Shown in pieces: positions 9,371 to 55,138 of a DNA stretch of 64,000 nt. The position numbers and the translations under genes are program-made. This DNA is from Nostoc sp. 106C (GTDB lineage Bacteria; Cyanobacteriota; Cyanobacteriia; Cyanobacteriales; Nostocaceae). The stretch spans positions 1 through 64,000 of the forward strand of contig NZ_MTAW01000106.1 in assembly GCF_002154725.1 (NCBI RefSeq), given 5' to 3'. The notes beneath the pieces were generated by a model, which saw only the letters and a list, made by a program, of their open reading frames with translations, was not told where the DNA came from and did no database searches. The first letter of the stretch is position 1. Each line of letters begins with the position of its first letter.

Positions 9371-9431
9371 GGCTTTTCCATCTCCAGTTCTAATCTAAAA
9401 TCTCAAATCCCACATTTGACAATTGCCTTGC

Positions 9432-10551: not shown

Positions 10552-10757
10552 ATTTACCAAGATTGTGTTGTGAGTGCTGAGTCATGAGTTACTAATAATT
10601 CTGATCTCGGTTGGGTGTAAACAATCTAGGAAAAGGGTTTAGGGACTGAGTAATAGAAACTAGAGTAGTTTATTCAATTCAGATAAAAACTGCTATGATT
10701 TCATGCCTAAGTTTTACCTGTGTTTTCACCGAAACTATATGAATGAGTGAGATTCTC

Positions 10758-10796
10758 ACTCGATACTCAGTACTCAGCACTCAGCACTCAGCACTC
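10758..10796. repeat. Heptanucleotide tandem repeat ACTCAGC
   Basis: Units ACTCGAT, ACTCAGT and three copies of ACTCAGC follow one another, ending in a partial unit. It lies downstream of the secreted-protein gene at 10814-11233. Confidence 0.85.
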
Positions 10797-10813
10797 TTAC
10801 GTGGTGGTAAATT

Positions 10814-24915: not shown

Positions 24916-26082
24916 ATGAGCCAACTTGATTTAAAAGTTATTCTTGAAGCATTACAAAAAGTTTTACCGCAAGAGCAAAGTTGTATCGGATTGCATGAAC
25001 CTTATTTTATTGGTAATGAATGGGTTTATGTCAAAGAATGTTTAGATACAAGATGGGTTTCTTCAGTAGGTAAATTCGTTGATAATTTTGAATCTAGCCT
25101 AGCTAAATATACTGGAGTCAATCGGGCAGTTGCAGTGGTAAATGGTACTGCTGCTCTTCATATATGTTTACAGTTGATTGGAGTTAAAGCAGGGGATGAA
25201 GTTTTAATTCCAAGCTTAACCTTTGTAGCAACAGCAAATGCAGTTTCCTATTGTGGAGCTATTCCTCACTTTATAGATAGTGAAGAAACAACATTGGGAA
25301 TAGATCCAAAAAAACTAGGTAATTATCTGGATAGTATTGCAGAAATTAAGTCTGAAGGTTGCTGTAATCGAAAAACTGGGCGATTTATCAAAGCTATTAT
25401 TGCAGTTCATACATTTGGTCATCCAGTAGATTTGGATGCTTTGTACCAGGTTTGTGAGCACTTTCAATTAACCTTAATTGAAGATGCGGCGGAGTCTTTA
25501 GGTAGTTTTTACAAAGGTCGCCATACAGGTAACTGGGGTAAAGTTACGGCACTCAGTTTTAACGGCAATAAAATTATTACGACTGGAGGAGGTGGAGCGA
25601 TTTTAACCCAAGATGATTCTTTAGCAAACTTGGCTAAGCATATGACTACAACTGCTAAATTACCGCATCGGTGGGCATTTAATCACGATCAGGTTAGTTA
25701 TAATTATCGATTACCTAATATTAACGCAGCTATAGGATGTGCCCAACTAGAGAATTTACCAGAAATTTTAAGTGCAAAAAGAGCTTTGGCAGAAAAATAC
25801 GCTCAAATTTTCCAACAAATTTATGGGATCAAGTTTTTTACAGAACCTGATTATGCACATAGTAATTATTGGCTGAATACTTTGTTGTTAAATGAAGATT
25901 ATGCTGCACAAAGAAATGATTTATTAGAATTAACTAATAATTATGGTATTATGACTCGTCCTGCATGGACTTTAATGCATAAATTACCTATGTATAAAGA
26001 TTTTCCTCGTATGAATTTAGAGGTTGCAGAAAGTTTAGAAAGTAGAATAATTAATATTCCGAGTAGTGCTTTTCTAGTTTAA
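24916..26082 (+). CDS. legC: LegC-type PLP aminotransferase
   Basis: This DegT/DnrJ/EryC1 aminotransferase would transfer an amino group from glutamate to C4 of the 4-keto sugar made by LegB. The 388 residues include VAVVNGTAALHICLQL (73-88), the PLP-phosphate and ring contacts in LIEDAAESLGSFYKG (187-201, Asp190), and the Schiff-base lysine in ALSFNGNKIITTGGGG (Lys219). The extra N-terminal segment (IGLHEPYFIGNEWVYVKECLDTRWVSSVGKF) is the LegC subtype signature. It lies between LegB- and LegI-type genes, which fixes its role. The C-terminus is complete (SSAFLV). Confidence 0.9.
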   Translation: MSQLDLKVILEALQKVLPQEQSCIGLHEPYFIGNEWVYVKECLDTRWVSSVGKFVDNFESSLAKYTGVNRAVAVVNGTAALHICLQLIGVKAGDEVLIPSLTFVATANAVSYCGAIPHFIDSEETTLGIDPKKLGNYLDSIAEIKSEGCCNRKTGRFIKAIIAVHTFGHPVDLDALYQVCEHFQLTLIEDAAESLGSFYKGRHTGNWGKVTALSFNGNKIITTGGGGAILTQDDSLANLAKHMTTTAKLPHRWAFNHDQVSYNYRLPNINAAIGCAQLENLPEILSAKRALAEKYAQIFQQIYGIKFFTEPDYAHSNYWLNTLLLNEDYAAQRNDLLELTNNYGIMTRPAWTLMHKLPMYKDFPRMNLEVAESLESRIINIPSSAFLV

Positions 26083-26154
26083 AAATTAAATGTTTGATGT
26101 TATAAAATAATGTTTTTAGAGTAGTATTTGTATGGTCAAACTAAAGTAATAAAT

Positions 26155-27204
26155 ATGCAAAAAATTGACGTATCTGGTATATCAATAGGACCAGGATATC
26201 CTTGTTTTATCATTGCTGAAGCAGGGGTAAACCACAATGGTAGCTTAGACATAGCTAAACATTTAATTGACAAAGCTTTAGAAGCAGGAGCAGATGCGGT
26301 TAAATTTCAATCTTTTAAGTCAGAAAAAGTTGTTACTAGCACAGCTCCTAAAGCAGAATACCAATTACTGACAACAAATCCTAATGAATCTCAACTTGAT
26401 ATGATTCGTCCATTAGAATTGTCAGTAGAAGCACATCGAGAATTACAAGCTTACTCAAAACAACAAGGAATCTTATTTATTTCAACTCCCTTTGATGAAG
26501 AAAGTGCAGACCTTTTGGAAGAATTAAAAGTGCCGCTATTTAAAATTCCTTCAGGAGAAATCACAAACTGGAATTTTTTAAAGTATGTCGCACGTAAGGG
26601 TAAACCTTTAATTGTTTCAACTGGAATGTCCTACTTAAGCGAAGTCGAAGAAGCTCTCCGGGTAATTCGCCAAGTTGGATGTGAACAATTGGTATTGTTA
26701 CACTGTGTCTCAAACTACCCTGCCAACCCAGTTGAAGCCAATCTTAGGGCAATGCATTCAATGGCGACAGCCCTGCAAGTACCAGTAGGCTATTCGGATC
26801 ATACACCAGGAATTGAAGTGGCATTAGCGGCAGTTGCTTTGGGAGCTTGTGTGATTGAAAAGCATTTTACCTTAGATAAAAACTTGCTTGGGCCTGACCA
26901 CAAAGCTTCTTTAGACCCTCAAGAGTTACAGGCATTAGTTAAGGGGGTAAGAAGCGTAGAACTTGCTTTAGGAAATGGCTTGAAACAACCGACAGAATCT
27001 GAAACTAATACCCGTGCGATCGCTCGTCGTAGCATAGCAGTAACCTGTGATGTAGTAAAAGGAACTGTACTTCAGCCAGAAATGCTCACTGCTCTGCGCC
27101 CAGCCAGTGGTATTTCTCCAACCCAGCAAGACTTAGTAATAGGGCGCAAGGTAACGAGATCGCTCAAAGCAGGTCAAATAATCTGTTGGAGTGATTTAAC
27201 ATGA
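26155..27204 (+). CDS. legI: LegI/NeuB-type nonulosonic acid synthase
   Basis: It condenses the free 2,4-diacylamino-6-deoxyhexose with phosphoenolpyruvate to give the nine-carbon acid. The NeuB barrel is recognised by FIIAEAGVNHNGSLDIAKHLIDKA near the start, ADAVKFQSF, STPFDEESADLL, VSTGMSYLSEVEEA, HCVSNYP and VPVGYSDHTPGIEVALAAVALGA, with EKHFTLDK containing the metal His. A C-terminal SAF/antifreeze-like domain starts near RSIAVTCDVVKG. A longer frame starts with TTG at 26128, but the ATG at 26155 matches the family N-terminus better. The 349 residues match the family. The stop overlaps the next ATG by four bases. Confidence 0.93.
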   Translation: MQKIDVSGISIGPGYPCFIIAEAGVNHNGSLDIAKHLIDKALEAGADAVKFQSFKSEKVVTSTAPKAEYQLLTTNPNESQLDMIRPLELSVEAHRELQAYSKQQGILFISTPFDEESADLLEELKVPLFKIPSGEITNWNFLKYVARKGKPLIVSTGMSYLSEVEEALRVIRQVGCEQLVLLHCVSNYPANPVEANLRAMHSMATALQVPVGYSDHTPGIEVALAAVALGACVIEKHFTLDKNLLGPDHKASLDPQELQALVKGVRSVELALGNGLKQPTESETNTRAIARRSIAVTCDVVKGTVLQPEMLTALRPASGISPTQQDLVIGRKVTRSLKAGQIICWSDLT

Positions 27205-28364
27205 GAAGCATTGGTGTCGTGACGGTAGGACGATCAGACTACAGCAGTTGTCTACCAATTCTCAAACAGATTCAACAAGATCCTGATTTACATCTACACC
27301 TAATTGTCACAGGAATGCATCTATCGCCTGAATTTGGGTTGACTGTGCAAGAGATTGAATCTGATGGTTTTGAGATTGGCGATCGCGTAGAAATGCTCCT
27401 CAATTCTAATACTCCCGAAGGCGTTGCTAAATCTATAGGTCTTGGGACGATTGGCTTGGCTCAAAGCTTTGCTCGCTATCAGCCAGATCTATTGCTGATT
27501 GTAGGCGATCGCTTTGAATTACTTTCAATTGTCAGTTCTACTCTACCCTTTCGTATTCCTATTGCTCACATCTCTGGTGGAGATATCACGGAAGGAGCGA
27601 TTGACAATCAAATCCGCTACGCAGTGACTCAAATGAGCCATCTACATTTTGTAGCGATGCAGGAACATAAAGAAAGACTACTCCAGATGGGTGAACAACC
27701 TTGGCGTGTTTTTGTAACAGGAGATCCAGCTTTAGACTCCATCCAACAAATGAAATTAATGGTACGAGAGGAGCTAAGTCAGAGTCTTGGACTGGAGTTA
27801 AAACCTCCTATTTTACTAATCACGTATCATCCCACGACCCTTAGTGCCATAAGTCCTGTGGAAGAGATTGAGATTGTCTTGAAGGCTTTAGAGCAAGTTG
27901 AAGGAACTCTCATCTTTACTTGTCCCAATGCTGATCCTGAAGGACGAGTGATTATCAAAAAAATTCAAGAATTTGTTGCTACTAGAACCCAAGCTAAGTT
28001 TTTTTCTAATCTCGGTCAGTTAAGATACTACAGTTTGCTAGGACAAGCTGACGTAATGGTAGGCAATTCTTCCAGTGGGATTTGGGAAGCGCCCAGTTTT
28101 CGCCTACCAGTTGTTAATATTGGCGATCGCCAGCAAGGTCGGCTGCAAACCAAAAATGTGATTGATGTTGGGCTTGATTTTAAGGCAATCAATGAATCTA
28201 TTAATAGAGCCTTGCAGTCTTATTTTCGCCTTGGTCTGTCAGACTTAAAAAATCCTTACGGAGATGGTCAGGCAGCTTATCGCATTATTAGAGTTCTCAA
28301 AAGTATTAACATTGGCTCAAGTTTTTTAAAAAAACAATTTTTTAGCGTTTCAAATCAGATATGA
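27201..28364 (+). CDS. legG: LegG/NeuC-type UDP-sugar 2-epimerase (hydrolysing)
   Basis: This enzyme hydrolyses the nucleotide and inverts C2, giving the 2,4-diamino-6-deoxymannose needed by LegI. The 387 residues have the GT-B fold marks GVVTVGRSDYSSCLPILKQI, VTGMHLSPEFG, LLIVGDRFELLSI, IAHISGGDITEGAIDNQIRYAVTQMSHLHF (with the His/Asp catalytic region), TYHPTT and the UDP-binding VMVGNSSSGIWEAPSF. It starts in a 4-bp ATGA overlap with LegI and ends in another with the next gene, so the three are translationally coupled. This gene holds three HIP1 sites, unlike its cluster neighbours. Confidence 0.92.
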   Translation: MRSIGVVTVGRSDYSSCLPILKQIQQDPDLHLHLIVTGMHLSPEFGLTVQEIESDGFEIGDRVEMLLNSNTPEGVAKSIGLGTIGLAQSFARYQPDLLLIVGDRFELLSIVSSTLPFRIPIAHISGGDITEGAIDNQIRYAVTQMSHLHFVAMQEHKERLLQMGEQPWRVFVTGDPALDSIQQMKLMVREELSQSLGLELKPPILLITYHPTTLSAISPVEEIEIVLKALEQVEGTLIFTCPNADPEGRVIIKKIQEFVATRTQAKFFSNLGQLRYYSLLGQADVMVGNSSSGIWEAPSFRLPVVNIGDRQQGRLQTKNVIDVGLDFKAINESINRALQSYFRLGLSDLKNPYGDGQAAYRIIRVLKSINIGSSFLKKQFFSVSNQI

Positions 28365-29485
28365 GGCAGAAATTCAAAGCTTTAGGGGGAGAAATGGAAT
28401 TAGCTCCTCAAACACTCACTGCCCCTCTAATCCATAACATCTTATCCCAATTGCCTAGCCATCAAACTGTTGTTACAGGGAGGACAGGAATTAAATTGAT
28501 TTTGCAGGCTATCAAAGAAGAATTAAATGGGGTATTTCTTCTGCCAGCCTATTTATGTTCTAGCGTACTTCAAACTTTTCAAGAAGAAAAAATTGAAATA
28601 GCTTTTTATAACATTAATTCTGATTTAAGTTTAGATTTAATGCATTTAATAAAGCAGGTAGAGAATTTATCTCCTCAAGGAATATTTTTTATTAACTATT
28701 TCGGATTTCCTGTCGCTAAAAAAGTTAAGGAAGCTCTGCTAAATTTAAAAAAACAGTGCTGGTTGATTGAAGATTGCGTCCAGGGATCTCTAGTTGAAGC
28801 TACTCATCCGGTTGTTGGGAAAATTGGACATTTTAGCTTGACCAGTTTTCGGAAATATTTACCCTTGCCAGATGGCGGATTAGTGATCAATAATACACAA
28901 CATACTTTAGCTTATTTGCCAGCAATCCTTAGCAAGTTTGTGAGATATCGTTTATTTGGTAAGTTTTTACGTTATGAGTTTATCCACCATTACTTAAACT
29001 CTTCTGAATTAGAAGAGATATATCTAAATCTCTTCGCTGCTGCGGAAAGAGAATTAGATACTCAAACGCCCATGCAGGGAATGTCTGAAATTTCCCAAGA
29101 TTTACTTAAGCGTCTTAATTTGTCGGATGCTATGGAAAGAAGACGCAGCAATTTTTTATCTATTCTCCAGGCATTTACGGAAACTCCTAAACTACAGTCT
29201 CTAGGTGTTCCCTTGATTGCACAATTACCAGAAGGAGTATCTCCTTTGGTATTTCCCCTTCGAGTCAGAGAGAAGAAAAGAGACCAACTAAGGCATCAAC
29301 TCCAGTCTCAAAACGTCTTTTGTCCTATTCACTGGCATTTACCTCAAGAAGTTCAAGTAACCGAATTTCCAGAAGCCCATCAGATATCAAAAGAAATACT
29401 GAGTTTGCCTATCGACCAACGTTACACCAAAGACGATATGAATAGTTTGATCGACCAATTATTGATCGCGTATCAAAATATATGA
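28361..29485 (+). CDS. DegT-like PLP-dependent enzyme of the nonulosonic acid cluster
   Basis: This is a 374-residue protein of the aspartate-aminotransferase fold. The DegT-family middle is visible: LIEDCVQGSLVEA near 138-150, with the PLP-pyridine Asp, and the Schiff-base lysine region FSLTSFRKYLPLPDGGLVINN near 155-176 (FRKYLPLPDGG). Substrate-binding N-terminal motifs differ from LegC, so it is not a duplicate. It may aminate another position, act on a linked carbohydrate, or serve the methyltransferase and FemAB-like genes downstream to which it is coupled by 4-bp overlap. No family name beyond DegT-like can be supported. Confidence 0.8.
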   Translation: MRQKFKALGGEMELAPQTLTAPLIHNILSQLPSHQTVVTGRTGIKLILQAIKEELNGVFLLPAYLCSSVLQTFQEEKIEIAFYNINSDLSLDLMHLIKQVENLSPQGIFFINYFGFPVAKKVKEALLNLKKQCWLIEDCVQGSLVEATHPVVGKIGHFSLTSFRKYLPLPDGGLVINNTQHTLAYLPAILSKFVRYRLFGKFLRYEFIHHYLNSSELEEIYLNLFAAAERELDTQTPMQGMSEISQDLLKRLNLSDAMERRRSNFLSILQAFTETPKLQSLGVPLIAQLPEGVSPLVFPLRVREKKRDQLRHQLQSQNVFCPIHWHLPQEVQVTEFPEAHQISKEILSLPIDQRYTKDDMNSLIDQLLIAYQNI

Positions 29486-30156
29486 TGAATTGGGATTCCA
29501 CTTGGGAACAGATATTCAGTACACGGGAGTGGGGAAAATATCCTCCAGAAGAAGTTATTCGCTTCATAGCGCGAAATTTTTATGCCTTTACAAATAGAAA
29601 GCAAATTAAATTGCTAGAAATTGGCTGCGGTACTGGAGCAAATATTTGGTATATGAGCAGAGAAGGTTTTGATGTCTATGGGATTGATGGATCAGCCACA
29701 GCAATAGCTAAAGCGGAAAATCGTTTACATTCAGAAGGTTTAAAAGCCCATCTCCAAATCGGGGATCTGATTTCATTATCTAACTTTTATCCTCCTGCCT
29801 ATTTTGATGCAGTGCTAGACGTAGCGTGCTTGCAACACAACTCAATTCCAGGCATTAAAATCATAGTAGAACAAGTTAAAACTGTGCTCAAACCTGGAGG
29901 TAGAATCTTTTCTATGGCCGTTGCTTCTGGATCGTGGGGATATGGCTTAGGGAAAGAAGTCGAATCAGGAACGTTCATTGAGATCACGGAAGGACCTTTA
30001 GAAAGCAAAGGGCTATGCCATTTTTTCAATTTAGAAGAAGTGCAGGAACTCTCAAATTACTTTACTGATGTACAAATTGAATATTCACTTCGTAGTCTGA
30101 ACCACCAGCAACAATATTATAAGCATTGGCTTGTCGAAGGCAAAAAACAACCGTGA
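29482..30156 (+). CDS. Class I SAM-dependent methyltransferase
   Basis: This 224-residue methyltransferase has motif I LLEIGCGTGANIWYMS near 45-60, acidic motif YGIDGSATAIAKAE near 66-79, and FDAVLDVACLQHN near 110, where a canonical DxVxD is present. KPGGRIFSMA marks the post-motif loop. The substrate is not determined by sequence. By position it probably O- or N-methylates an intermediate or the completed nonulosonic sugar. It starts at a coupled ATGATG just at the previous stop codon, and its TGA overlaps the next gene's GTG. Confidence 0.85.
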   Translation: MMNWDSTWEQIFSTREWGKYPPEEVIRFIARNFYAFTNRKQIKLLEIGCGTGANIWYMSREGFDVYGIDGSATAIAKAENRLHSEGLKAHLQIGDLISLSNFYPPAYFDAVLDVACLQHNSIPGIKIIVEQVKTVLKPGGRIFSMAVASGSWGYGLGKEVESGTFIEITEGPLESKGLCHFFNLEEVQELSNYFTDVQIEYSLRSLNHQQQYYKHWLVEGKKQP

Positions 30157-31208
30157 AATGGCAAATTTTTACTGCTCAAGAGACAGAAGAGTGGTACAAA
30201 GTACTAGAACGTTTTCACTCAATAGATATCTATTTTCTCCCTGAATATCATAGAGCATATGAGTTAAATGGGGATGGAATAGCTTATGCTTTTGTTGCCC
30301 AAGATGAAGGTAATACTTGGTTTTACCCTTTCTTTGTGCGTTCTATTCAGCAAGTTGGGTCTGAAGTTTTAGACGAGCCTTGGTACGATATTGAAACAGT
30401 CTACGGATACAGTGGTCCATTAAGTACTACTACCGATCCAGCGTTTTTGACAAAAGTTCAAGCCGTGTTTTCTCAATGGTGCCAAGATAATCGTATAATT
30501 GCTGAGTTTATTCGCTTCAATCCGCTGCTTCAGAATCACCAATACGTCGATCAGTCTTGTCGGCTAATCCCCAATAGAGAAACGGTCGTTGTTAGTTTAA
30601 AGGGATCTGAGCAAGATTTATGGGCAAACTATCCTTCTGTGCAGCGCAATATGGTTAACAAAGCTATTAAAAATGGATTGGTTTGTGCAGAAAGTTCTAC
30701 ACCGGAAAACTTAGAAGCATTCCGACAAATGTATGAACAGACGATGAACCTTCTCGGCGCTATTCCTTATTACTACTTCTGTGAGTCTTATTTTAAATAC
30801 TTATGGAACAATCTGACTCAAGCCGTTAAACTATTCACGGTCAGATATGAAGAGCATATTGTTACTGCTGGATTATTTCTGCAACATGGAGATTTCCTCC
30901 ACTACCATCTGGCAGGTAGCGATGTCAATTATCGCTCCTTTGCTCCTAACAATTTACTATTACACACAGTTGCACAATGGGGACAAAAAAACGGCTTTCA
31001 CTGGCTGCATCTGGGAGGGGGACGAACCGCAGACCCAAAAGATGACCTCTTCCGCTTTAAAGCCAGTCTCTCGAGATTGTATCTTCCTTTCTATATCGGT
31101 GGACGAGTTCATAATGCAGCCGTCTACGAAAAACTCTGCGTTAACTGGATGCGTCAGCAACAATTCATCCAACGGCCTAACTACTTCCTTCTTTATCGCT
31201 TAACTTGA
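30153..31208 (+). CDS. FemAB/CelD-like GNAT acyltransferase of the nonulosonic acid cluster
   Basis: This 351-residue protein (counted from the GTG at 30153) shows the FemAB-type double-GNAT architecture: two acyltransferase halves, with RNMVNKAIKNGLVC and the second block FRQMYEQTMNLLGA and YYFCESYFKYLWN. YHLAGSDVNYRSFAPNNLLLHTVAQWGQKNGFHWLHLGGG is characteristic of FemAB/BioF2-like transferases. The GTG overlaps the upstream TGA (GTGA), favouring it over the TTG at 30126. The family uses aminoacyl-tRNA or acyl-CoA donors on sugars or peptidoglycan. In this cluster it may acylate the amino sugar or nonulosonate. No LegH/PglD-type acetyltransferase is present. Confidence 0.8.
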   Translation: MKWQIFTAQETEEWYKVLERFHSIDIYFLPEYHRAYELNGDGIAYAFVAQDEGNTWFYPFFVRSIQQVGSEVLDEPWYDIETVYGYSGPLSTTTDPAFLTKVQAVFSQWCQDNRIIAEFIRFNPLLQNHQYVDQSCRLIPNRETVVVSLKGSEQDLWANYPSVQRNMVNKAIKNGLVCAESSTPENLEAFRQMYEQTMNLLGAIPYYYFCESYFKYLWNNLTQAVKLFTVRYEEHIVTAGLFLQHGDFLHYHLAGSDVNYRSFAPNNLLLHTVAQWGQKNGFHWLHLGGGRTADPKDDLFRFKASLSRLYLPFYIGGRVHNAAVYEKLCVNWMRQQQFIQRPNYFLLYRLT

Positions 31209-31395: not shown

Positions 31396-32445
31396 GTGAA
31401 AGACTGGAAAATAATATTGATTTCGCCACAATACTCACTTCGGGAAGCAATCCAAACCATTGATACTAGCGCTCTGCAAATTGCACTGGTTGTGAACGAA
31501 CAACAGCAATTATTAGGAACTGTGACTGATGGAGATATCCGCCGAGCGATATTGAGAGGGTTATCGTTAGATGAACCTGTTCATCTAGCAATGAATCTTC
31601 AACCCATTACTGTCGGTACTAATACGACTAATGATGAAATTATCGCTATAATGCGCCGAAAAAGCATTCGGCAAATCCCTGTAATTGATCTAGACAGGCG
31701 AGTTGTCAAACTTGCACTACTAGAACAACTGCTAGAAGTTACTAAGCGTGATAACTGGATTGTTTTAATTGCTGGTGGGTTGGGAACTCGGTTAGCCCCC
31801 TTAACTCAAGATTGTCCAAAGCCCTTGTTGAAAGTAGGTGGTAAGCCAATTCTGGAAAATATCTTAGAGAGCTTTATTGACTGTGGATTCCATCAATTTT
31901 TTATTTCAGTCAATTATAAATCTCACATGATTGAAAACTACTTTAACGATGGCTCACGGTGGGGAGTAAATGTCGAATATCTGCGTGAAACAGAACGTTT
32001 AGGTACTGCTGGCGGTTTAAGTTTACTGCCGGAACACCCAGAATTACCTTTTTTTGTAATGAATGCGGATTTATTAACGAAACTGAACTTCCATAACATG
32101 CTCAATTTTCATCAAGAGCATGAGAGCGTGGCAACAATGGCAGTCACAGAGTATGATTTTCAGATTCCCTTTGGTGTAGTTGATACAGAGCAACAAAGAA
32201 TTATTGGACTTAGAGAGAAGCCTGTATATAAATTTCATGTTAATACAGGAATTTATATTTTAGAACCATCATGTTTAGACTCAATTCCTAAAGCAAAATA
32301 CTACGACATGCCGTCTCTATTTGAAACACTAATTCAAAAACAAGAAAAAACCTCTGCTTTTCCCATTAGAGAATACTGGTTAGATATTGGAAGGATGAGT
32401 GATTTTGAGAAAGCCAACGAAGAATTTAGAGAGGTATTTGTATGA
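31396..32445 (+). CDS. ptmE: PtmE-type CBS-nucleotidyltransferase (glucosamine-1-phosphate guanylyltransferase)
   Basis: PtmE makes GDP-glucosamine from GTP and glucosamine-1-phosphate, the entry step of the GDP-based legionaminic acid route in Campylobacter. The 349 residues carry two CBS motifs in the first 120 (VTDGDIRRAILRG, IRQIPVIDLDRRV), then the nucleotidyltransferase signature IAGGLGTRLAPLTQDCPKPLLKVGGKPILE near 127-156, and the metal-binding MNADLLTKLNF near 223. The CBS-transferase order matches PtmE. The start is GTG, 187 bases after the FemAB-like gene. Its presence favours the GDP-legionaminic variant over the UDP-based pseudaminic route. Confidence 0.85.
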   Translation: MKDWKIILISPQYSLREAIQTIDTSALQIALVVNEQQQLLGTVTDGDIRRAILRGLSLDEPVHLAMNLQPITVGTNTTNDEIIAIMRRKSIRQIPVIDLDRRVVKLALLEQLLEVTKRDNWIVLIAGGLGTRLAPLTQDCPKPLLKVGGKPILENILESFIDCGFHQFFISVNYKSHMIENYFNDGSRWGVNVEYLRETERLGTAGGLSLLPEHPELPFFVMNADLLTKLNFHNMLNFHQEHESVATMAVTEYDFQIPFGVVDTEQQRIIGLREKPVYKFHVNTGIYILEPSCLDSIPKAKYYDMPSLFETLIQKQEKTSAFPIREYWLDIGRMSDFEKANEEFREVFV

Positions 32446-33128
32446 TTCAAGAAAAAAAAGTTTTGGCAATTATTCCCGCCCGAGGAGGATCTAAAACAGT
32501 CCCGCGTAAAAATATTCGAGAAATAGGAGGAAAACCATTAATTGCATGGACAATTGAAGAAGCTAAAAAATCTATTTATATAGATAGATTAATACTGTCA
32601 TCAGAAGATGATGAAATTATTAGCATCGCTCAACAATGGGGCTGTGAAGTTGCTTTTAAACGCCCTATTGAACTCGCTCAGGATGATACGCCAGGAATTG
32701 CTCCTGTTTTACACGCTTTAAGTCAGCTTCCTATATATGATTATATTGTTCTTCTCCAACCAACTTCTCCTCTGAGAAAGGTGATAGACATTGATGCTTG
32801 TCTTGAAGCTTGTGTTAAAACTCACAGTTATTCTTCTGTCTCAGTTACTGAATCTGATTCAAGCCCCTATTGGATGTATACCGTTGATAAAAGTGGAAAA
32901 ATGCAGCCTTTTATCAAAACACCCAATATTTTTGAGCGTCGGCAAGATTTACCAAAAGTTTATCTATTAAATGGTGCTGTTTATGTGGCTCAAACAGCAT
33001 GGCTCCTACAAAATAAAAATTTTATTAGTGAAGACACAACGGCATATATTATGCCATTGGAACGTTCATTAGATATAGATACTGAATTCGATTTACTTTG
33101 GATGCAGAACCATATAAAACATAGTTAA
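32442..33128 (+). CDS. legF: LegF/NeuA-type CMP-nonulosonate cytidylyltransferase
   Basis: It activates the nonulosonic acid with CTP to CMP-sugar for transfer. The 228 residues begin with the diagnostic LAIIPARGGSKTVPRKNIREIGGKPLIAWTI, with GGSK-x-x-RKN the CTP loop. The LLQPTSPLRK block and DIDTEFDLLWMQ end (Asp-Ile-Asp) are typical. It overlaps the PtmE-type gene by 4 bases and is followed 40 bases later by the giant glycosyltransferase. Whether it prefers legionaminate, pseudaminate or N-acetylneuraminate cannot be read, but the LegB/PtmE neighbours argue for legionaminate. Confidence 0.92.
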   Translation: MIQEKKVLAIIPARGGSKTVPRKNIREIGGKPLIAWTIEEAKKSIYIDRLILSSEDDEIISIAQQWGCEVAFKRPIELAQDDTPGIAPVLHALSQLPIYDYIVLLQPTSPLRKVIDIDACLEACVKTHSYSSVSVTESDSSPYWMYTVDKSGKMQPFIKTPNIFERRQDLPKVYLLNGAVYVAQTAWLLQNKNFISEDTTAYIMPLERSLDIDTEFDLLWMQNHIKHS

Positions 33129-33167: not shown

Positions 33168-36100
33168 ATGCCTAAAATCAGATTAATTGTAGTTCAAGGA
33201 CCAGCCCAATTACTAACTGTACTCTCTGTGCTTCGTTCACAAGAAAAAAATGGAGAATATAGAAACTGTGATGATTATTTGATAATGGGGGGCTATAGAG
33301 ACCAAAAATTGAATAAAGTGTGTATACAAATTTCTCAAATTTGGAAATTTAAAGAGAGGTTATCACTTTATGAATTTGAAAATCTTTGTTCTGTAAAAGA
33401 TTTTGATTTTGTTACCACGACACAGTTATTAAAAAACTACCTCAACCTTCCATTTGCTGATGTTGTTTATACTTGTCGCAACTGGCAATTTATAAATGAA
33501 GTATTTTTATCAGCTTATGCAAACGCTCGGAAAATATGTTATGGAGATAGTTTAGGTTTATTAAACCTGTATAGTAGTAATTCAGATATTAAATCTCTAA
33601 ATGCATGTGGTTATATTCCTATAGATGATAGTTATCTGATTACACCAATCGATTGTGGAAAATCATTTGAACTTTGTAATGTTAAACAAGTTAGTCCAGA
33701 GTTTTTTGAAGATATAGTTTCTGATAGTTCTAGACAAATAGATGGGCTTAGAGATTATTGTAAAAATCTGAACAATCAATTTGGAAATTCATTAACAATT
33801 TCTCTAACATCTTATGAGACAGAAGCTGGATTAGTCAAAAATTATCAAGATGAAATTCATTCTTACCTATCAAGTATTTTACCTTATACTCAAGCATGCG
33901 AAAATATTTTAGTTAAAGGTCACCCAAGGCAGCAACTCAATCAGGCACAGGTACTAGTTAGAGAACTAAATAAACACAAGCTTAATGCTTTTTTGATTCC
34001 AGAAGTTTTTACAAGAGTGCCTATTGATCTATTTTGTAACTTTTTGAAAATCACGAAAGCATTTACATCTTATTCTTCAGCATGTGTCTCTATTGCGTAT
34101 CTTTGTCAAAGCGAATTGGTGATAGGCTATGGAGAAAAAATAGTTAGCGAATTTTATGATAAAAATATAGGAGAAGAAAAACTCATATATGAACATATTT
34201 TCTCTTTAGCTGTAAAACAGGCTTATATGAAAAAATTTGAGCCTATAAGTTTTATAGATATAAAAGAAAAAATTACACAATTTCATCAATATCCAATATT
34301 AATTAAACCAAGCACCAATATGCAATACCAAATCCAATCCCAAGTCGCAGAAAAAGATATTATTCAGTGGTTTCATCAACTTTACTATAATGCAGCCCAG
34401 CAAAGAGGGCTAACATGGCAAAAAACTTATTGGATGGGAATACCTGTTTACAAGTGTCCATTAGATTTATGGATTTATCAGGAGATTCTATTTGAAATTA
34501 AGCCTGACATTATTATTGAAACTGGAACACTTTATGGTGGAAGTGCTTTATTTTTGGCACAGATGTGCGATCTACTTGGTAAGGGTGAAATTGTAAGTAT
34601 TGACATCCAAGATCGCCCTAATAGACCCCAGCATCCCCGCATATCTTATTGGCTCGGCTCTTCAATATCTGAAACTATGATAGAGCGAGTACGGCAAAAA
34701 ATAACCAATAAAAGCTCAGTATTGGTTATTTTGGATTCTGATCATCGTGCCGAACATGTATTACAAGAACTGCATCTTTACCATCAATTTGTGACACCTA
34801 AAAGCTATCTTATTGTCGAGGACACAAATATTAATGGCCATCCAGTTTATCCTGAGTATGGGCCTGGTCCAATGGAGGCAGTTCAAGCTTTTCTACATGA
34901 AAATTCAGATTTTTATATAGAGCAAGAATGTGAAAAATTATATCTCACATTTAACCCGTCAGGATATTTAAAGAAGCGCGACTACCAAGAAGTTACTGAG
35001 ACTGATACATTTTCAATTTACATCCAAGAGTACCAAAAAGACCCTAGTAATCCATTAGCGATCGCTAACTTGCGAGAATTGCGTAATCAAATTGCTATTG
35101 AATTTCTGAACTTACCAGCTTTTCAACTTGAAAGCGTTTACATAGGAGAATTGGGTAAGAAGCATCAAGTATTGCTTAAAGTGGGTTTGATAAATGAACC
35201 AATTACTCCTAAAGAACAGGCTTTTGTTAATGAAGTAGTCACATATCTCTCGCAAGAATGTGATGATTCTAAAGTGCTTCAGTCTCTACTGGTAGCTATG
35301 CTGTATCTTCATCCTCAGCAGTTACCCTTGCGTCAGGAAATTGCTCTCATACCTTATTGGCTGATAACTGACTACGTCACCTATCTTTTTAATCCGCATT
35401 CTTACTTCCAAAAATCTGGTGAATCAAAAGATTATTACTATTATCTTGAAGATTGGGTAGATGTCTTACATAAATCTATTTTATGCCATGATAATTTTAT
35501 TTATTGGAATGATTTTTTAGAGAATTTTGTGTTTAAGTCTAATTTTATTCATTTATACTTTAATGAGGCAAATGTTAAAAGTATTTATGCCAAACGAGCA
35601 GAAATCATAGAGCATTTTTTAAAAGAGAAGAACTATAAATTAGATTATGTATTCCCTAATAGTTCTATTAACCGTAGAAAAATTCGTCTTGGAATATTAG
35701 CATCTCATTTTCTCCCCTCATCTGAAACCTTTGCTTCTCTTCCTGTTTATGAATATCTAAGCAGAGAGTATGAAGTAATCTTGTACTCTCTTAATCAAAC
35801 TGGTCATCCACTAGAGCAATATTGTCAAAGTTGTGCAAACTCCTTTAAGTTACTACCACAAGAATTAACAGAACAAGTAAATACTATTCGTGCTGACGAT
35901 CTGGATATATTATTTATCGCTACTAATGTAACAGCAGTAACTAATCAAATATGCTTCTTATCAATGCATAGATTAGCTAGGATACAAGTTACAAGTGGAG
36001 GCTCGGTTGTTACAACTGGAGTACGAAATATAGATTATTATATTTCCGGTACATTAACCGACCCATCACCAACAGCACAAGAACAGTATCGAGAAAAATT

Positions 36101-37241
36101 AGTGAAATTAGAAGGAACTGCGCATTGTTTTAGTTATGGTGCTGAACCGGAAAAGGTAACTGTAGAAGTTGATCGAGAGAGTTTAGGAATTTCTCAAGAT
36201 ACTATTGTTTTTATCTCTAGTGCTAACTTCTTCAAAATCATCCCAGAATTAATTAACTCATGGGCAAAAATTATTACAGAAGTGCCAAATTCCGTTCTGG
36301 TACTACTACCATATGGGCCAAATTGGTCTAATGCATATCCAAAGAAAGCTTTTGAAAATCACTTAAGTAAAGTATTTGCAAAATATGAGATATCAGTAAA
36401 TAGATTGATAGTTTTAGATCCTCAGCCAATACCAAATAGAGAAGATGTTAAGGAATACTTCAAAATCGCTGATGTTTATCTAGATTCTTATCCATTTGCG
36501 GGTACAACTTCTTTAATTGAACCATTACAGGTTAATCTACCAGTAATTGCTAGACAGGGAACTAGTTTTCGTTCTGCCATGGGTGCAGCAATGGTGCAAG
36601 CATTGAATATTCCTGGTTTAGTTGCGGATAATGAAGAGTCTTATATCCAGCTAGCGATCGCACTTGGTAATGACTCTGAATTACGCCAGCAAAAGAGTGC
36701 TCAAATCCAAGGAAAAATGCAGGCTAATCCTAGTTTTCTAGATAGTCGCTCCTACTCAGCTAAAATAGGAAGCCTATTTCAAGAGCTATTCAGCAATTAT
36801 CTTGTAGATAATCTAAGCCAAAATTTGCGCTTAAATGATACTAACCTGATTGTTTTTCCTGACTGGTCACAGCCAGAAGACCTACTATATCAAGATTTAG
36901 CAAGTGTGATTTCTGCTCTCACTACTCACCCAGATAAAAGTCAGATAACTCTCTTAATAGATACTCATAATATTGCTGAAGAGGAAGCTGATATGCTTTT
37001 ATCGTCTTTGACCATGAATTTGCTCATGGAAGAGGATGTGGATATAACAGAGGGTCCAGAAATTTCTCTGTTAGGTCATATAAGTGATATTCAATGGCAT
37101 ATTCTTTTGCCTAGGATTCAAACTCGAATTGCTATGGCAATAGATAACCCGCAGGCGATCACACAAGTAAAAGCAGACAAGTTACCAGTCTGTGAATTAG
37201 ATAGCTTGAGCATCTTCCAATCAGAGGTTATACCTGTCTAG
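33168..37241 (+). CDS. Trimodular giant: polysialyltransferase-like, CmcI-type methyltransferase and GT41/OGT-like
   Basis: A 1357-residue fusion not recognised as a named protein. Residues about 1-345 resemble bacterial polysialyltransferase-like enzymes that use CMP-nonulosonates: LIVVQGPAQLLTVLSVL at the start, LVKGHPRQQ (the HP motif, 251-254) and FTSYSSACVSIAY (the SS motif, 303-304). About 400-605 is a CmcI/cephalosporin-hydroxylase-like methyltransferase with ETGTLYGGSALFLAQ (451-465), ILDSDH (521-526) and VEDTNINGHP. After a helical linker, 838-1200 is GT41/SPINDLY-like, with SANFFKIIPELI (Lys1023) and DVYLDSYPFAGTTSLIEPL. The His corresponding to the GT41 NHxxG motif appears replaced by Ser (LPSSET). 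A 150-residue acidic tail follows. It directly follows the CMP-sugar gene. Confidence 0.78.
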   Translation: MPKIRLIVVQGPAQLLTVLSVLRSQEKNGEYRNCDDYLIMGGYRDQKLNKVCIQISQIWKFKERLSLYEFENLCSVKDFDFVTTTQLLKNYLNLPFADVVYTCRNWQFINEVFLSAYANARKICYGDSLGLLNLYSSNSDIKSLNACGYIPIDDSYLITPIDCGKSFELCNVKQVSPEFFEDIVSDSSRQIDGLRDYCKNLNNQFGNSLTISLTSYETEAGLVKNYQDEIHSYLSSILPYTQACENILVKGHPRQQLNQAQVLVRELNKHKLNAFLIPEVFTRVPIDLFCNFLKITKAFTSYSSACVSIAYLCQSELVIGYGEKIVSEFYDKNIGEEKLIYEHIFSLAVKQAYMKKFEPISFIDIKEKITQFHQYPILIKPSTNMQYQIQSQVAEKDIIQWFHQLYYNAAQQRGLTWQKTYWMGIPVYKCPLDLWIYQEILFEIKPDIIIETGTLYGGSALFLAQMCDLLGKGEIVSIDIQDRPNRPQHPRISYWLGSSISETMIERVRQKITNKSSVLVILDSDHRAEHVLQELHLYHQFVTPKSYLIVEDTNINGHPVYPEYGPGPMEAVQAFLHENSDFYIEQECEKLYLTFNPSGYLKKRDYQEVTETDTFSIYIQEYQKDPSNPLAIANLRELRNQIAIEFLNLPAFQLESVYIGELGKKHQVLLKVGLINEPITPKEQAFVNEVVTYLSQECDDSKVLQSLLVAMLYLHPQQLPLRQEIALIPYWLITDYVTYLFNPHSYFQKSGESKDYYYYLEDWVDVLHKSILCHDNFIYWNDFLENFVFKSNFIHLYFNEANVKSIYAKRAEIIEHFLKEKNYKLDYVFPNSSINRRKIRLGILASHFLPSSETFASLPVYEYLSREYEVILYSLNQTGHPLEQYCQSCANSFKLLPQELTEQVNTIRADDLDILFIATNVTAVTNQICFLSMHRLARIQVTSGGSVVTTGVRNIDYYISGTLTDPSPTAQEQYREKLVKLEGTAHCFSYGAEPEKVTVEVDRESLGISQDTIVFISSANFFKIIPELINSWAKIITEVPNSVLVLLPYGPNWSNAYPKKAFENHLSKVFAKYEISVNRLIVLDPQPIPNREDVKEYFKIADVYLDSYPFAGTTSLIEPLQVNLPVIARQGTSFRSAMGAAMVQALNIPGLVADNEESYIQLAIALGNDSELRQQKSAQIQGKMQANPSFLDSRSYSAKIGSLFQELFSNYLVDNLSQNLRLNDTNLIVFPDWSQPEDLLYQDLASVISALTTHPDKSQITLLIDTHNIAEEEADMLLSSLTMNLLMEEDVDITEGPEISLLGHISDIQWHILLPRIQTRIAMAIDNPQAITQVKADKLPVCELDSLSIFQSEVIPV

Positions 37242-37436: not shown

Positions 37437-39647
37437 TTACTTTTCTTCTACATACCTTTGCCACATCTGTTCGTAAGCGTTCTCCATCTCAAGAGTAAAC
37501 TGCTTACCATTCCACAATGGTGCAGTGTGTCTAGATTGACGTAATTGCCAAGAAATTTGTTGTCTTAAAGAAGCGTCTTTACCCAAGCAGACACCCCATT
37601 CTATATACTCTTCATCTGTCCAAGCTATGCCTTGAGTGACACCAGCATTGATCATCATGGTATAACTATTACGCGCCGCAAATTGTTCACCAACTCTGGT
37701 CACTAAAGGTATACCCATCCACAATGTTTCTAGGGTTGTTGTTGCTCCGTTGTAAGGATATGTATCTAATACAATATCAGCAATACCTAAGTTAGCACGA
37801 TGAACTGACTCTAGAGAAACTTGGGGTAAAAATCGTAATCGAGAGCAATCAACACCCTCTTCTTCAGCAATTTGATAAAAGAAGCGTTTAATTGCTTCTT
37901 CTTCAGAAAGCCCCTTAATCAAAAAGTAGCTGTTAGGTACTTGTTTGATAATTTGCATTTGCCATTTAGTTGTTTCTGGATGGCGTTTATATCCTCTTTG
38001 TGCGCTTAGGTACACAACAGCATCCCCAGGAATATTTAAGTCTTCCCGACGAAGAGTTGGGACACCTACCTCAAAACCATCTACTGCTATGTAAGTTTGG
38101 GGTAATCGCCAAATTTTTTCTGTGTAGTAATTTTGTGCATCGTCTGGCAATACATAGGGGTCGGCAATATAGTAATCAATTGCAGGTATGCCTGATGCAT
38201 CCCAACCTAGCCAAGTAACTTGGATAGGGGCTGGCTTGAGTGCCATCACTTCACTAGTAATGTCTAAAGTAATACTATCAAGGTCAATTAAAATATCGAT
38301 TTCATCTTGATATATCTGTTCAGCAATTTTTAAACCATTCATACCTAATTTATGAGCATTGCCTGCCTTTTGTACATACCAATCCTGGAGAAAATCATCT
38401 ACTAATTGATAGTTAACAAAATAAGTATGAATATCAAATTTATCTTGGTCATGATGCTGAAATAACCAGCGAGCTAACCAACCAACTGAATGATTTCTTA
38501 AAGCGTAAGATATATAACCAATTTTAAGTTTCTTGCTGGGAGTTTTTAATTTTTTTTCTTGGGCATCATATTTTTTTCCTTGTGATTTAGCTAAAGTTTG
38601 AATATCAGTATTAAAGATTTCAGCTACTTTATTATGAATTGCTCGAAAATTGGCAGGAGTATCTTTAATATGAGGTATAGCAAAGGATGGCGTAAGCAAC
38701 CTTAGTATTCTTGCCTCTTCTAAAGAAATTGGTTGAGCTTTGATGAATTCTTGATATATACCTTCTAATTCTTCGCAAGTTTCACATATTTCTTGCCAAT
38801 ATCCACCTGCCGACATTAGTCCTCTTAACAGCAAATGGAGGGCAAAAATTTTATCAGCTAAACCTTCTGATAGTGAATAACATAACTTAGCAGTCTCTAT
38901 ACCTTGAGAATAATGACGAGCATCTTGATAAAAAACTGCTAAATGTCGCAAAATTTCTACATTCTCTGGTTCTAATTGTAAATGCAATTTAAGAAGTTCT
39001 GCTGCTAATAAAGGCTGCCGTAAAGTATGACCGATTGTCATGGCAGTGGTAAGAATTAGACAAAAGCATTGATAAGTATCAGAGAAGTAAGGTAAACAAG
39101 CTTCTACTAAATTTAAATTGATTGCATGTAAAGGAGCAGTATTTAAAATTTCCTCTAAAACTTGTATTAATAATTCACTATTGATATTTAGACTTTCTGG
39201 CTCGTTTAAAATTTCAATTATTCCCCACTCATGCAAGTCCTTAATTTCTTCAAACTTTTCTAGCTTGAGGCAAAGTTGCAAAATGTGGAGTAAATTATTA
39301 ATATCAATAGGATTAACTTCTCGCATATGCTGGCGAATTAACCAGGCTATAGAATATTCCTCTCGTATTTCACGTCTTTCAGCTTCTATTTGTAAAAATT
39401 GAAACAGTTCATTTGTCCAAATTTCTAACTGTTCTTCATCTGCCTCTGTCATTGGCAGCATCCACGTCATTTGAGCTTCTGCTTCTTGTCCTTGTAATAG
39501 CAATAGTAATCCTAAATGACAATAATAAGAAATAGTATTTGGTTCTATTGCGATTGCTTCTTCATATAACTTCGCTGCTTGCGAATATTTTTCTTGAATA
39601 AAGTATTGTTCAGCTTGATTTTGCCAATTATATATATCAGTAATCAT
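37437..39647 (-). CDS. ogtA: TPR-GT41 O-linked glycosyltransferase (OgtA type)
   Basis: A SPINDLY/O-GlcNAc-transferase family protein of 736 residues. In the N-terminal half TPR units include AAKLYEEAIAIEPNTISYYCHLGLLLLLQGQ and further helical repeats to about 340. The catalytic GT41 half begins with LKIGYISYALRNHSVGWLARWLF, which holds the catalytic-region His, continues through APIQVTWLGWDASGIPAIDYYIADPYV, VYLSAQRGYKRHPET and ADIVLDTYPYNGATTTLETLWMGIPLVT. The ATG at 39647 has GGAG eight bases upstream, so it is preferred over the longer frame to 39731. It is directly downstream of pilA in the same direction, as in Nostoc punctiforme, where ogtA is required for hormogonium motility. The most likely target is pilin. 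Confidence 0.88.
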   Translation of the reverse strand: MITDIYNWQNQAEQYFIQEKYSQAAKLYEEAIAIEPNTISYYCHLGLLLLLQGQEAEAQMTWMLPMTEADEEQLEIWTNELFQFLQIEAERREIREEYSIAWLIRQHMREVNPIDINNLLHILQLCLKLEKFEEIKDLHEWGIIEILNEPESLNINSELLIQVLEEILNTAPLHAINLNLVEACLPYFSDTYQCFCLILTTAMTIGHTLRQPLLAAELLKLHLQLEPENVEILRHLAVFYQDARHYSQGIETAKLCYSLSEGLADKIFALHLLLRGLMSAGGYWQEICETCEELEGIYQEFIKAQPISLEEARILRLLTPSFAIPHIKDTPANFRAIHNKVAEIFNTDIQTLAKSQGKKYDAQEKKLKTPSKKLKIGYISYALRNHSVGWLARWLFQHHDQDKFDIHTYFVNYQLVDDFLQDWYVQKAGNAHKLGMNGLKIAEQIYQDEIDILIDLDSITLDITSEVMALKPAPIQVTWLGWDASGIPAIDYYIADPYVLPDDAQNYYTEKIWRLPQTYIAVDGFEVGVPTLRREDLNIPGDAVVYLSAQRGYKRHPETTKWQMQIIKQVPNSYFLIKGLSEEEAIKRFFYQIAEEEGVDCSRLRFLPQVSLESVHRANLGIADIVLDTYPYNGATTTLETLWMGIPLVTRVGEQFAARNSYTMMINAGVTQGIAWTDEEYIEWGVCLGKDASLRQQISWQLRQSRHTAPLWNGKQFTLEMENAYEQMWQRYVEEK

Positions 39648-39706
39648 AGTAATTCTCCGAAAAAATTGTATGGGAAATATAATTGTGAGCGACACATAAT
39701 GGAAAT

Positions 39707-39734
39707 AAAGTGGATAGAATAATCTACCCACTTT
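39707..39734 (-). terminator. Hairpin between pilA and ogtA
   Basis: AAAGTGG and CCACTTT pair with an inner ATAGA/TCTAC helix, in the 190-base spacer. It lacks a long T-run, so it could attenuate rather than stop transcription and set a high pilA to ogtA ratio. Confidence 0.5.
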
Positions 39735-39837
39735 AAAAACTACCTAATTTAGTTCAATACAAACTACATGAAAAATTAACTGTTGTATGAAGTGTCTTAG
39801 ACAAAGAATATTTTCACGTAGTAAGTCAATGCTTTAC

Positions 39838-40392
39838 TTATTTCAAAGCAGCGAAGCTAGTGGGGCAACTAGGTCCGTTTGCGGTAAAGTCAGATGCTAC
39901 TACATCTGAACCACCGTTAACTCTGGCTTGTGTAGCTTCACATAAGACGGCAATGGTAGTAGCTTCACTGGTAGCAGCTTGAGTTGCTATACTCACACCA
40001 CCAATATAACTTTTCAGAGGTGCAGCATCAACTACTGTTTTTGCTTGGTTGGTTACTGCACTACTGTTAGCACCACCAGCATTAATTTGATATTTGTAAT
40101 TTGTTGTTTGTGTTGCAACACCAAGACCTAACTTACCAAAATCAGAATTCGCTGCAAATTCGTTGTTTTCTAAGTAATAAGCTTGCTGAGCGCGGTTCAT
40201 GGAACCTACGTAGGTTTTAGCTTCCGACTGCTTAGCTTTGTTTGCTTGGTTCAAGAAAGAAGGTAGCGCAATAGCCGACAAAATACCGATGATGATAATT
40301 ACTACCAACAATTCAATGAGTGTGAAACCTTCGTTTTCTTGCTTTTTACCGAGAATGTGTTGGATAAATTTAGCTTTTAGTTCGGTTTTCAT
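39838..40392 (-). CDS. pilA: Major type IV pilin PilA
   Basis: Prepilin of the type IV pilus, processed by PilD and assembled for motility or DNA uptake. From the ATG at 40392 the protein is 184 residues: a 22-residue leader ending KKQENEG, the cleavage motif G-FTLIE and helix FTLIELLVVIIIIGILSAIALPSFLNQANKA with Glu at +5. The mature globular part has LENNEFAANSDFGKLGLGV and a C-terminal disulfide loop with Cys in VLCEATQ and PSCPT. Ser/Thr-rich stretches near the end are plausible O-glycosylation sites. The 5-prime leader holds a hairpin. ogtA follows downstream. The frame to 40446 adds 18 residues not found in pilins and is rejected. Confidence 0.93.
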   Translation of the reverse strand: MKTELKAKFIQHILGKKQENEGFTLIELLVVIIIIGILSAIALPSFLNQANKAKQSEAKTYVGSMNRAQQAYYLENNEFAANSDFGKLGLGVATQTTNYKYQINAGGANSSAVTNQAKTVVDAAPLKSYIGGVSIATQAATSEATTIAVLCEATQARVNGGSDVVASDFTANGPSCPTSFAALK

Positions 40393-40412
40393 AAGTGTTT
40401 TCCCTGGGGTGG

Positions 40413-40447
40413 GGTGGGTTGTTTGTTCTAAAAAGAACTTACCCACC
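40413..40447 (-). promoter_or_regulatory. Two-tier hairpin in the pilA 5-prime leader
   Basis: Outer stem GGTGGGT/ACCCACC (7 bp) and inner stem GTTCT/AGAAC (5 bp) lie 21 bases upstream of the pilA start codon. It could stabilise the mRNA or control access to the AGGGAAAACACTTATG ribosome site. Confidence 0.55.
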
Positions 40448-41560: not shown

Positions 41561-42934
41561 ATGACCAACCCGACAGTAGAAAACTTGGTAATCATCGGTT
41601 CTGGGCCAGCAGGATACACAGCGGCCATCTATGCAGGGCGAGCTAACTTGAAGCCCGTTGTATTTGAAGGCTTCCAAGCAGGGGGATTGCCTGGTGGGCA
41701 ACTGATGACAACGACGGAAGTAGAGAACTTTCCTGGGTTTCCCCAAGGCATTACCGGGCCGGAACTGATGGATAGGATGAAGGCACAGGCAGAGCGCTGG
41801 GGGGCTGAATTATATACAGAGGATGTGATATCAGTAGATTTGACTCAACGTCCTTTTACTATCCGCTCAGAGGAAAGAGAAGTTAAAGCTAACAGCATCA
41901 TCATCGCCACTGGTGCGACGGCGAAGCGTTTAGGTTTACCCAGCGAACATGAATTTTGGAGTCGCGGGATTTCTGCTTGTGCGATTTGCGATGGTGCTAC
42001 ACCAATCTTCCACGGTGCGGAACTGGCTGTAATTGGTGCTGGTGACTCAGCAGCAGAAGAGTCAATATATTTGACAAAGTACGGTTCTAAAGTAAATCTG
42101 CTGGTACGCTCTGATAAAATGCGGGCTTCTAAAGCCATGCAAGACAGGGTTTTGAGTAACCCCAAAATCCAAGTACATTGGAACACAGAAGCCGTAGATA
42201 TCTTTGGTAACGGCCACATGGATGGGGTGAAAATCCGTAATACTAAAACTGGTGAAGAAAGCAAACTACAGGCGAAAGGTTTATTCTACGCCATCGGTCA
42301 CACACCTAATACTTCTCTGTTCAAAGGACAACTGGAACTGGATGAGGTGGGTTACGTTGCTACTAAGCATGGTTCTGTAGAAACCAGTGTCGCAGGTGTC
42401 TTTGCTGCTGGCGACGTACAAGATCATGAGTTTCGGCAGGCAATTACAGCTGCGGGTACTGGCTGTATGGCGGCGATGTTGGCAGAACGCTGGTTATCTT
42501 CCAATGGTTTAATTCAGGAATTCCATCAACAGCCAGAAACAGCAGTTAATGAATTAGAACATCAGCCAGCAGCCAAGAAAACCGAAGCTGAGCAAGAAGC
42601 CGAATTTAATTTGAATGCTACGCGCCATGAGGGTGGTTATGCTTTGCGGAAACTATTCCACGAAAGCGATCGCGTAGTTCTGGTAAAATACGTTTCTCCT
42701 GGCTGTGGTCCTTGTCATACTCTCAAGCCAATACTAAATAAAGTAGTCGATGAATTTGATGGCAAAATTCACTTTGTTGAAATTGATATCGACAAAGACA
42801 GAGATATTGCCGAAAATGCTGGTGTGACAGGAACACCGACAGTTCAATTGTTCAAAAATAAGGAACTTTTGAAAGAACTCAAAGGTGTGAAGCAAAAAAG
42901 TGAGTACCGCCAGTTGATTGAAAGTAGCCTTTAA
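41561..42934 (+). CDS. NADPH-thioredoxin reductase-thioredoxin fusion (NTRC)
   Basis: NTRC uses NADPH to reduce 2-Cys peroxiredoxin and other redox targets, mostly in the dark. The 457 residues are a thioredoxin reductase (FAD loop [28 protein letters not shown] near the start, redox-active CAIC in the [10 protein letters not shown] segment, NADPH loop [14 protein letters not shown], and [19 protein letters not shown] near the FAD end) joined by an acidic linker (about 325-350) to a thioredoxin with [15 protein letters not shown], the redox-active CGPC. Such fusion is a hallmark of cyanobacteria and chloroplasts. Full length, with all four redox cysteines. Confidence 0.96.
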
Positions 42935-49156: not shown

Positions 49157-49246
49157 TTTTGACCTAAATAATTTGTAAAAATTTTTAGTATAAGGTGGGC
49201 AGTAGGTACGCAAGCAGAAAAGCTGTAGATAAACTACATAAAAAAT

Positions 49247-52738: not shown

Positions 52739-52768
52739 CTGTTAGTTGCTTCACTGTGGAAAATCGAG

Positions 52769-55111: not shown

Positions 55112-55138
55112 AAAAACTATTGAGTGAGTCAGCGTCAA

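Follow-up and report, generated by a model that had tools for sequence, protein, structure and literature searches.

What might a cyanobacterium do with a single protein that joins a sialyltransferase-like domain, a methyltransferase, and half of an OGT-like glycosyltransferase? The question is raised by a 1357-amino-acid reading frame of Nostoc sp. 106C, in a stretch of 64,000 nucleotides that we analysed as a whole (the window; positions 1 to 64,000 of contig NZ_MTAW01000106.1, RefSeq assembly GCF_002154725.1). We propose that this fusion is probably a cytoplasmic, multi-module enzyme that builds the glycan of a type IV pilin O-glycosylation locus, and that it varies between strains. The linkage of its gene family to a pilin gene and to a glycosyltransferase gene that we call ogtA is well supported. 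The chemistry of the proposed pilin-glycan synthase we infer from its predicted domains.

33168..37241, + strand: mosaic glycosyltransferase/methyltransferase, 1357 amino acids, in a single open frame

One polypeptide with four modules

The sequence-only reading of the window described three unrelated enzyme domains in this frame. The frame is present and the three domains hold by sequence profile, but a fourth module, the last ~145 residues, had been overlooked. The predicted order along the protein is:

33168..34322, + strand: N-module, residues 1-385, polysialyltransferase-like (related to PF07388/GT52), with HPR at 252-254, SS at 303-304, and acidic D127
34365..34992, + strand: CmcI-type S-adenosylmethionine (SAM) methyltransferase module, residues ~400-608 (PF04989 match, aligned acidic residues)
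35013..36770, + strand: GT41-like half, residues ~616-1200 (PF13844 match, alignment to SPINDLY and OGT, residue counts)
36777..37211, + strand: tail module, residues ~1204-1348, a separate unit that is repeated inside relatives

The protein has no long hydrophobic stretch (the maximum 19-residue mean hydrophobicity is 1.66).

Could the frame be an assembly or annotation artefact that joins separate genes? A genome from another family of the class (G197; regional guanine-plus-cytosine content of 0.545) encodes a 1362-amino-acid protein that is 51% identical to the fusion, is colinear with it over residues 1-1345, and has the same order of modules. This independent assembly rules out an artefact, unless both assemblies share the error, and the N-module, GT41-like half, and tail are also found together in loci L005 (Nostoc paludosum) and L051 (genome G043). 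The misassembly that had been raised as a concern is thus hardly credible. Since L005 and L051 lack the methyltransferase but retain the N-domain and the C-terminal half, the methyltransferase is an optional insert. The arrangement had also been thought to lack any known parallel; given the protein from G197, it is rare but not unique. Within its family, which is widespread, modular, and variable and is tied to the ogtA-pilin locus, the fusion is a rare form.

Linkage to ogtA and a type IV pilin

The earlier reading did not mention the pair of genes next to the fusion:

37437..39731, - strand: ogtA-like TPR + GT41 protein glycosyltransferase, 764 amino acids (PF13844, 172 bits, plus TPR)
39838..40446, - strand: type IV pilin (Pilin_GH and N_methyl by domain scan), the proposed acceptor
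41561..42934, + strand: thioredoxin reductase/thioredoxin fusion, a conserved flank of the locus (domain scan and comparison of relatives)

The ogtA-like gene is convergent with the fusion gene and 195 bases from it. We named it by its position and by analogy to the cyanobacterial Ogt whose gene is described as lying beside pilA (PMC12288463). As at cyanobacterial Ogt-pilin loci, ogt lies beside a pilin gene (37437-40446).

The mosaic family was surveyed in three ways. Survey 1 comprised 42 loci that encode the GT41-like half: 40 came from a scan of the host family (including the window), and the other two are L005 and G197. The tail is present in 39 of these loci, and 35 of the 39 are no more than 6.2 kb from ogtA (34 convergent); a pilin gene is within 450 bases of ogtA in 33 of the 35, and in the other two the examined stretch ends. 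The tail loci away from ogtA are L051, L068, L076, and L097. None of the three loci without a tail is near ogtA, and in one of these cases (G116), a separate tail protein adjoins ogtA. An exact test of tail versus no tail (35/39 versus 0/3) gives about 0.003, as a hand calculation on related sequences that is descriptive only.

Survey 2 comprised 20 hand-picked genomes in which the GT41-like half had no strong match, five of them from the window's genus; the choice was non-random, and several of the genomes from outside the genus had an earlier tail match. All 20 have ogtA beside a pilin gene, and in 16 a tail protein is encoded at most 5.8 kb from ogtA (15 convergent). Survey 3 took 19 of the 50 tail-matching genomes outside the host family, mostly the best-scoring ones, regardless of ogtA. 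A full ogtA (48-58% identity) is present in 11 of the 19; it is convergent with the tail gene in all 11 and accompanied by a pilin gene in 10. The absence of OgtA from nine host-family genomes that lack a fusion match was not counted as evidence: the query itself includes a GT41 domain, so the argument would be circular.

In L102, L104, L105, L106, L108, and L132, an extra, separate GT41 protein (~560-770 amino acids) is encoded between the tail protein and ogtA, and at L091 (G066), three consecutive genes beside ogtA encode large GT41 or tail proteins.

The mosaic might instead make a cell-surface or sheath polysaccharide and adjoin ogtA-pilA merely as a fellow surface-glycan gene. Its modules are those of ordinary polysaccharide glycosyltransferases, enzymes of PF07388 are known from capsules, and some mosaics are unlinked to ogtA. 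However, tail genes adjoin ogtA in three differently anchored samples (35/39, 16/20, and 11/19 loci), and there is no flippase or polymerase among the annotated open reading frames at 20670-45728, where no search aimed at them was made. We consider a polysaccharide product unlikely. We favor the pilin glycan as the target because the conserved neighbours are a type IV pilin and a dedicated TPR-GT41 enzyme.

The GT41-like half: extender rather than starter?

Glyco_transf_41 (PF13844) matches residues 990-1199 (96.6 bits, cut-off 25), and among solved structures, the C-terminal half is closest to SPINDLY (E = 3.1e-27) and human OGT. K1023 aligns with the catalytic lysine of SPINDLY and OGT, as had been noticed from the sequence. 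This lysine and the donor-site glycine, threonine, and acidic residue (G1112, T1114, and E1118 in the window) are each conserved in 40 of the 41 distinct relatives. E853, T949, and T950 are invariant in the subfamily.

Another residue is altered. The histidine in the N-lobe of OGT, which we take to be an active-site residue, corresponds to S851 in the window; this position is mostly serine, glutamine, or glycine in the subfamily and is histidine in 2 of 42 rows. In the OgtA family, it is histidine in 54 of 55 rows, and the remaining row has a gap. Also, no TPR was found before the GT41 core of the fusion (at E <= 1), while the neighbouring OgtA has both TPR and GT41.

These residues bear on the idea, put forward in the earlier reading, that the fusion transfers, methylates, and possibly attaches a nonulosonic acid to a protein or glycan. 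If so, the GT41-like half would itself O-glycosylate a protein, be it pilin or some other one, and its product would be extended or capped by the N-module. The retained lysine and donor site would fit this, but the rarity of the histidine and the lack of TPR argue against it, and we think it rather improbable. OgtA is the likelier enzyme for attachment to protein because the fusion's own GT41-like half is without the usual histidine. The rest of the idea fares better: the domain reading holds by profile, and the genes upstream (see below) fit a CMP-nonulosonate donor. Judging from its residues, the GT41-like half is probably a transferase that is altered but still active, and one that more likely lengthens glycans than initiates them.

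The N-module and the methyltransferase

When the full-length fusion was scanned against Pfam, the N-terminal domain had no match. Scanned alone, it gave 17.2 bits against polysialyltransferase (PF07388), which is below the cut-off of 23.3 bits. In the alignment of the N-domain family, at E <= 1, all 9 members match PF07388 (best E = 4.3e-16), and GT52 is matched by 3 of the 9. The relatives at L050 (24.1 bits), L005 (23.8 bits), and L054 (41.5 bits) pass the PF07388 cut-off, and L051 (21.9 bits) and L052 (22.8 bits) are narrowly under it. The HP and SS motifs that had been reported in this domain are confirmed, as H252-P253-R254 and S303-S304 are invariant in the nine-row alignment. The residue that follows C124-Y125-G126 is D or E in all nine rows (D127 in the window). 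These motifs and the acidic residue are, we assume, a polysialyltransferase-like signature. A search of solved structures with the single N-domain sequence found nothing. Overall, the N-domain appears to be polysialyltransferase-like.

Among 388 genomes of the class, the N-domain matched in 13. Two of the matches, those of the window and G197, lie in frames of ~1360 amino acids; all others lie in frames of 397-429 amino acids. L027-L037 and L054 are stand-alone relatives of ~400 amino acids from other genera, with a stronger PF07388 match than the fusion's (L054, as above). In viral contigs, there were 12 pattern matches, none of which is an N-domain relative. We also considered whether the first modules of 13 other mosaic module sets, including those with NeuB upstream, might be distant copies of the N-module, and rejected this (profile-profile probability of at most 1.3%).

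The next module is matched by RMNT_CmcI (PF04989) at residues 417-603, with 205 bits (cut-off 23.2), and D523, E551, and D552 align with acidic residues of the solved CmcI. It scored 166.3 bits against the rhamnosyl O-methyltransferase equivalog NF045824, which is below that model's cut-off of 400.

Could the N-module polymerize nonulosonate into a chain, as a true polymerase would, instead of adding a single residue? Its family is related to the PF07388 polysialyltransferases, but PF07388/GT52 relatives also add single residues, and the neighbouring methyltransferase would fit a cap. We judge a polymerase to be quite improbable and prefer a single nonulosonate residue.

The tail module

The tail had no match above cut-off in the Pfam scan of the fusion. 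It is also present in proteins that lack the GT41-like half, and several relatives hold two tails, one behind an inner transferase unit and one at the end. Across 27 divergent copies, an N, an FPDW-like motif, and an R are in common. Comparing these copies to Pfam gave isolated weak matches, each from one of the 27 members (best E = 0.0032), and comparing the tail to solved structures (PDB) gave no match. The tail profile matches 62 of 291 genomes of the class, from 44 of 131 genera. What is new here is the tail module, together with the proposed modular pilin-glycan locus.

The window's genome encodes a second, shorter tail + GT41 protein elsewhere (L151, contig C126 of G000, 8634-10853; 740 amino acids). 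No pilin or full ogtA lies within the 20 kb examined around it.

The upstream genes and the probable sugar donor

Nine co-directional genes upstream of the fusion form a set for a legionaminic-type nonulosonic acid:

23882..24892, + strand: LegB 4,6-dehydratase (TIGR04180, 532.3 bits, cut-off 475)
24916..26082, + strand: LegC aminotransferase (TIGR04181, 547.8 bits, cut-off 420)
26128..27204, + strand: NeuB/LegI-type nonulosonate synthase (TIGR03569, 456.7 bits, cut-off 399.65)
27201..28364, + strand: NeuC/LegG-type UDP-GlcNAc 2-epimerase (TIGR03568, 453.7 bits, cut-off 235.9)
28361..29485, + strand: divergent DegT-family aminotransferase (domain scan)
29482..30156, + strand: small SAM methyltransferase (domain scan)
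30126..31208, + strand: FemAB/GNAT-fold acyl- or aminoacyl-transferase (domain scan)
31396..32445, + strand: CBS + nucleotidyltransferase (domain scans), presumably PtmE-like
32442..33128, + strand: CMP-nonulosonate synthetase (CTP_transf_3; the PseF model is below cut-off, 150.9 versus 205.7 bits)

LegB, LegC, NeuC/LegG, and NeuB/LegI of the legionaminic acid pathway all score above their NCBIfam cut-offs. The CMP-sugar synthetase gene lies directly upstream of the fusion gene, with a gap of 39 bases rather than the 40 given before. The operon directly upstream, with its NeuB and CMP-synthetase genes, indirectly supports a CMP-nonulosonate donor. In three of four relatives that share the N-module, NeuB is also encoded upstream, and the contig of the fourth ends 1.6 kb upstream. 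The FemAB-like enzyme and the small methyltransferase are possible tailoring enzymes, and the presence of the FemAB/GNAT-fold gene inside the operon suggests that the sugar is decorated with an aminoacyl or acyl group.

On the other side of the fusion, three large adjacent genes at 46517-55138 (- strand) encode TPR-CHAT, TPS-domain secreted, and DUF11/RTX-repeat proteins.

Variation between strains

Pfam scans of 25 relatives found GT2, GT4, GT11, DUF5672, and polysaccharide deacetylase modules. Counting the window, 11 of 26 proteins have a methyltransferase domain (CmcI, FkbM, or other). In seven other genomes of the genus, the thioredoxin reductase flank is 94-98% identical to the window's (three of the comparisons are partial), while OgtA is 47-90% and the pilin 57-83% identical, and none of the seven mosaics carries the window's N-terminal modules. 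Because the flank is conserved while OgtA, pilin, and mosaic modules vary, the ogtA-pilin-mosaic locus looks like what one would expect of an exchangeable surface-antigen locus.

The proposed pathway

We propose that OgtA would place the first sugar on a serine or threonine of the pilin. The GT41-like half, which is common to the subfamily, would add the next sugar, near the protein. The polysialyltransferase-like N-module would then add a legionaminic-type nonulosonate at the far end, from the CMP-sugar donor supplied by the upstream operon, and the CmcI module may O-methylate the distal sugar. The tail would serve as an anchor that keeps the enzyme bound to OgtA, to the pilin, or to the glycan as it grows. 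From strain to strain, the modules that precede the tail would be swapped along with the upstream sugar genes, giving a strain-specific pilus glycan.

Several observations weigh against this proposal. The activity of every module is a prediction. The window's own N-domain stays below the PF07388 cut-off, and a PDB search with the nine-row N-domain profile returned no sialyltransferase, only a proteasome maturation protein (E = 0.049). Of 38 mosaics that lack the window's N-module, 6 have NeuB upstream as well (an exact test of 3/4 versus 6/38 gives about 0.03, again a descriptive hand calculation on related sequences), and the first modules of the NeuB-bearing other mosaics are unmatched to the N-module by profile. 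Linkage has exceptions as well. Outside the host family, 8 of the 19 tail loci show no full ogtA in 20 kb. The mosaics of G182, G137, and G197 are on another contig than ogtA, as is that of the draft genome G043; G197, with the closest relative and the same module order, is thus among the unlinked cases. In G009, G033, and G026, the tail protein is encoded at another place on the chromosome, and G045 has ogtA and a pilin but no tail match.

More tentatively, this could be a serotype-like locus across the class, whose single modular polypeptide builds the pilin glycan in assembly-line fashion. As for the tail, it would be a new docking domain for OgtA or glycosylated pilin, placed behind successive transferase units, and the order of modules would set the order of sugars. 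In this strain, the last sugar of the glycan would be an O-methylated one of legionaminic type; the pilus surface would then be sialic-acid-like and, if so, could block phages or alter adhesion.

Comparison to known systems

Multi-domain glycosyltransferases of O-antigen synthesis and of serine-rich adhesin glycosylation unite several transferases in a single chain, in some cases along with a methyltransferase. We know of none with this tail module or at a pilin locus, and our literature search turned up no report of multi-module transferases encoded at a pilin locus, which does not establish that none is in print. The N-domain family shares the profile match and the HP and SS motifs with PF07388/GT52 enzymes; unlike them, the N-module is one module within a fusion, and its activity is predicted. 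With the CmcI/PF04989 family, the fusion shares the 205-bit match and the aligned acidic residues, while staying below the rhamnosyl equivalog cut-off.

For cyanobacteria, a review describes a role in PilA glycosylation for Ogt, which is encoded next to pilA (PMC12288463). The window likewise has a TPR-GT41 gene beside a pilin gene, but the system as described in the passages of that paper cited here has Ogt without a variable multi-module protein beside it. For Synechocystis Sll1696, which is co-transcribed with pilA2, the authors suggest a link to PilA1 glycosylation (PMC8546353, cited in part). In Caulobacter, pseudaminic acid is needed for flagellin modification by FlmG, a TPR + GT-B transferase, in the cytoplasm (PMC7591256, cited in part). 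This resembles our proposal in that a filament subunit is glycosylated in the cytoplasm with a need for nonulosonic acid, and TPR + GT-B is like the neighbouring OgtA. As described there, FlmG has two domains and handles one sugar, with no polysialyltransferase-like or methyltransferase module, and we liken it by description, not by sequence. The type IV pilin O-glycan of Thermus thermophilus includes a pseudaminic acid derivative (composition W-H-N-N; PMC7203116, cited in part). Both systems would thus have a type IV pilin with a nonulosonate (predicted, for the window), although Thermus belongs to another phylum and is likened by its glycan only.

What the mosaic family may mean

Cyanobacterial pilin glycosylation is known genetically through Ogt, and the passages cited here do not name the builder of the remaining glycan. 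The mosaic family offers concrete candidates for it, often one gene from ogtA, and the tail is a sequence signature that finds candidate pilin-glycan enzymes. A single chain that fuses a nonulosonate-transferase-like domain to a methyltransferase would, if active, be a useful tool for glycosylation. The variability of the locus makes it testable whether phage escape or partner recognition acts through the pilus.

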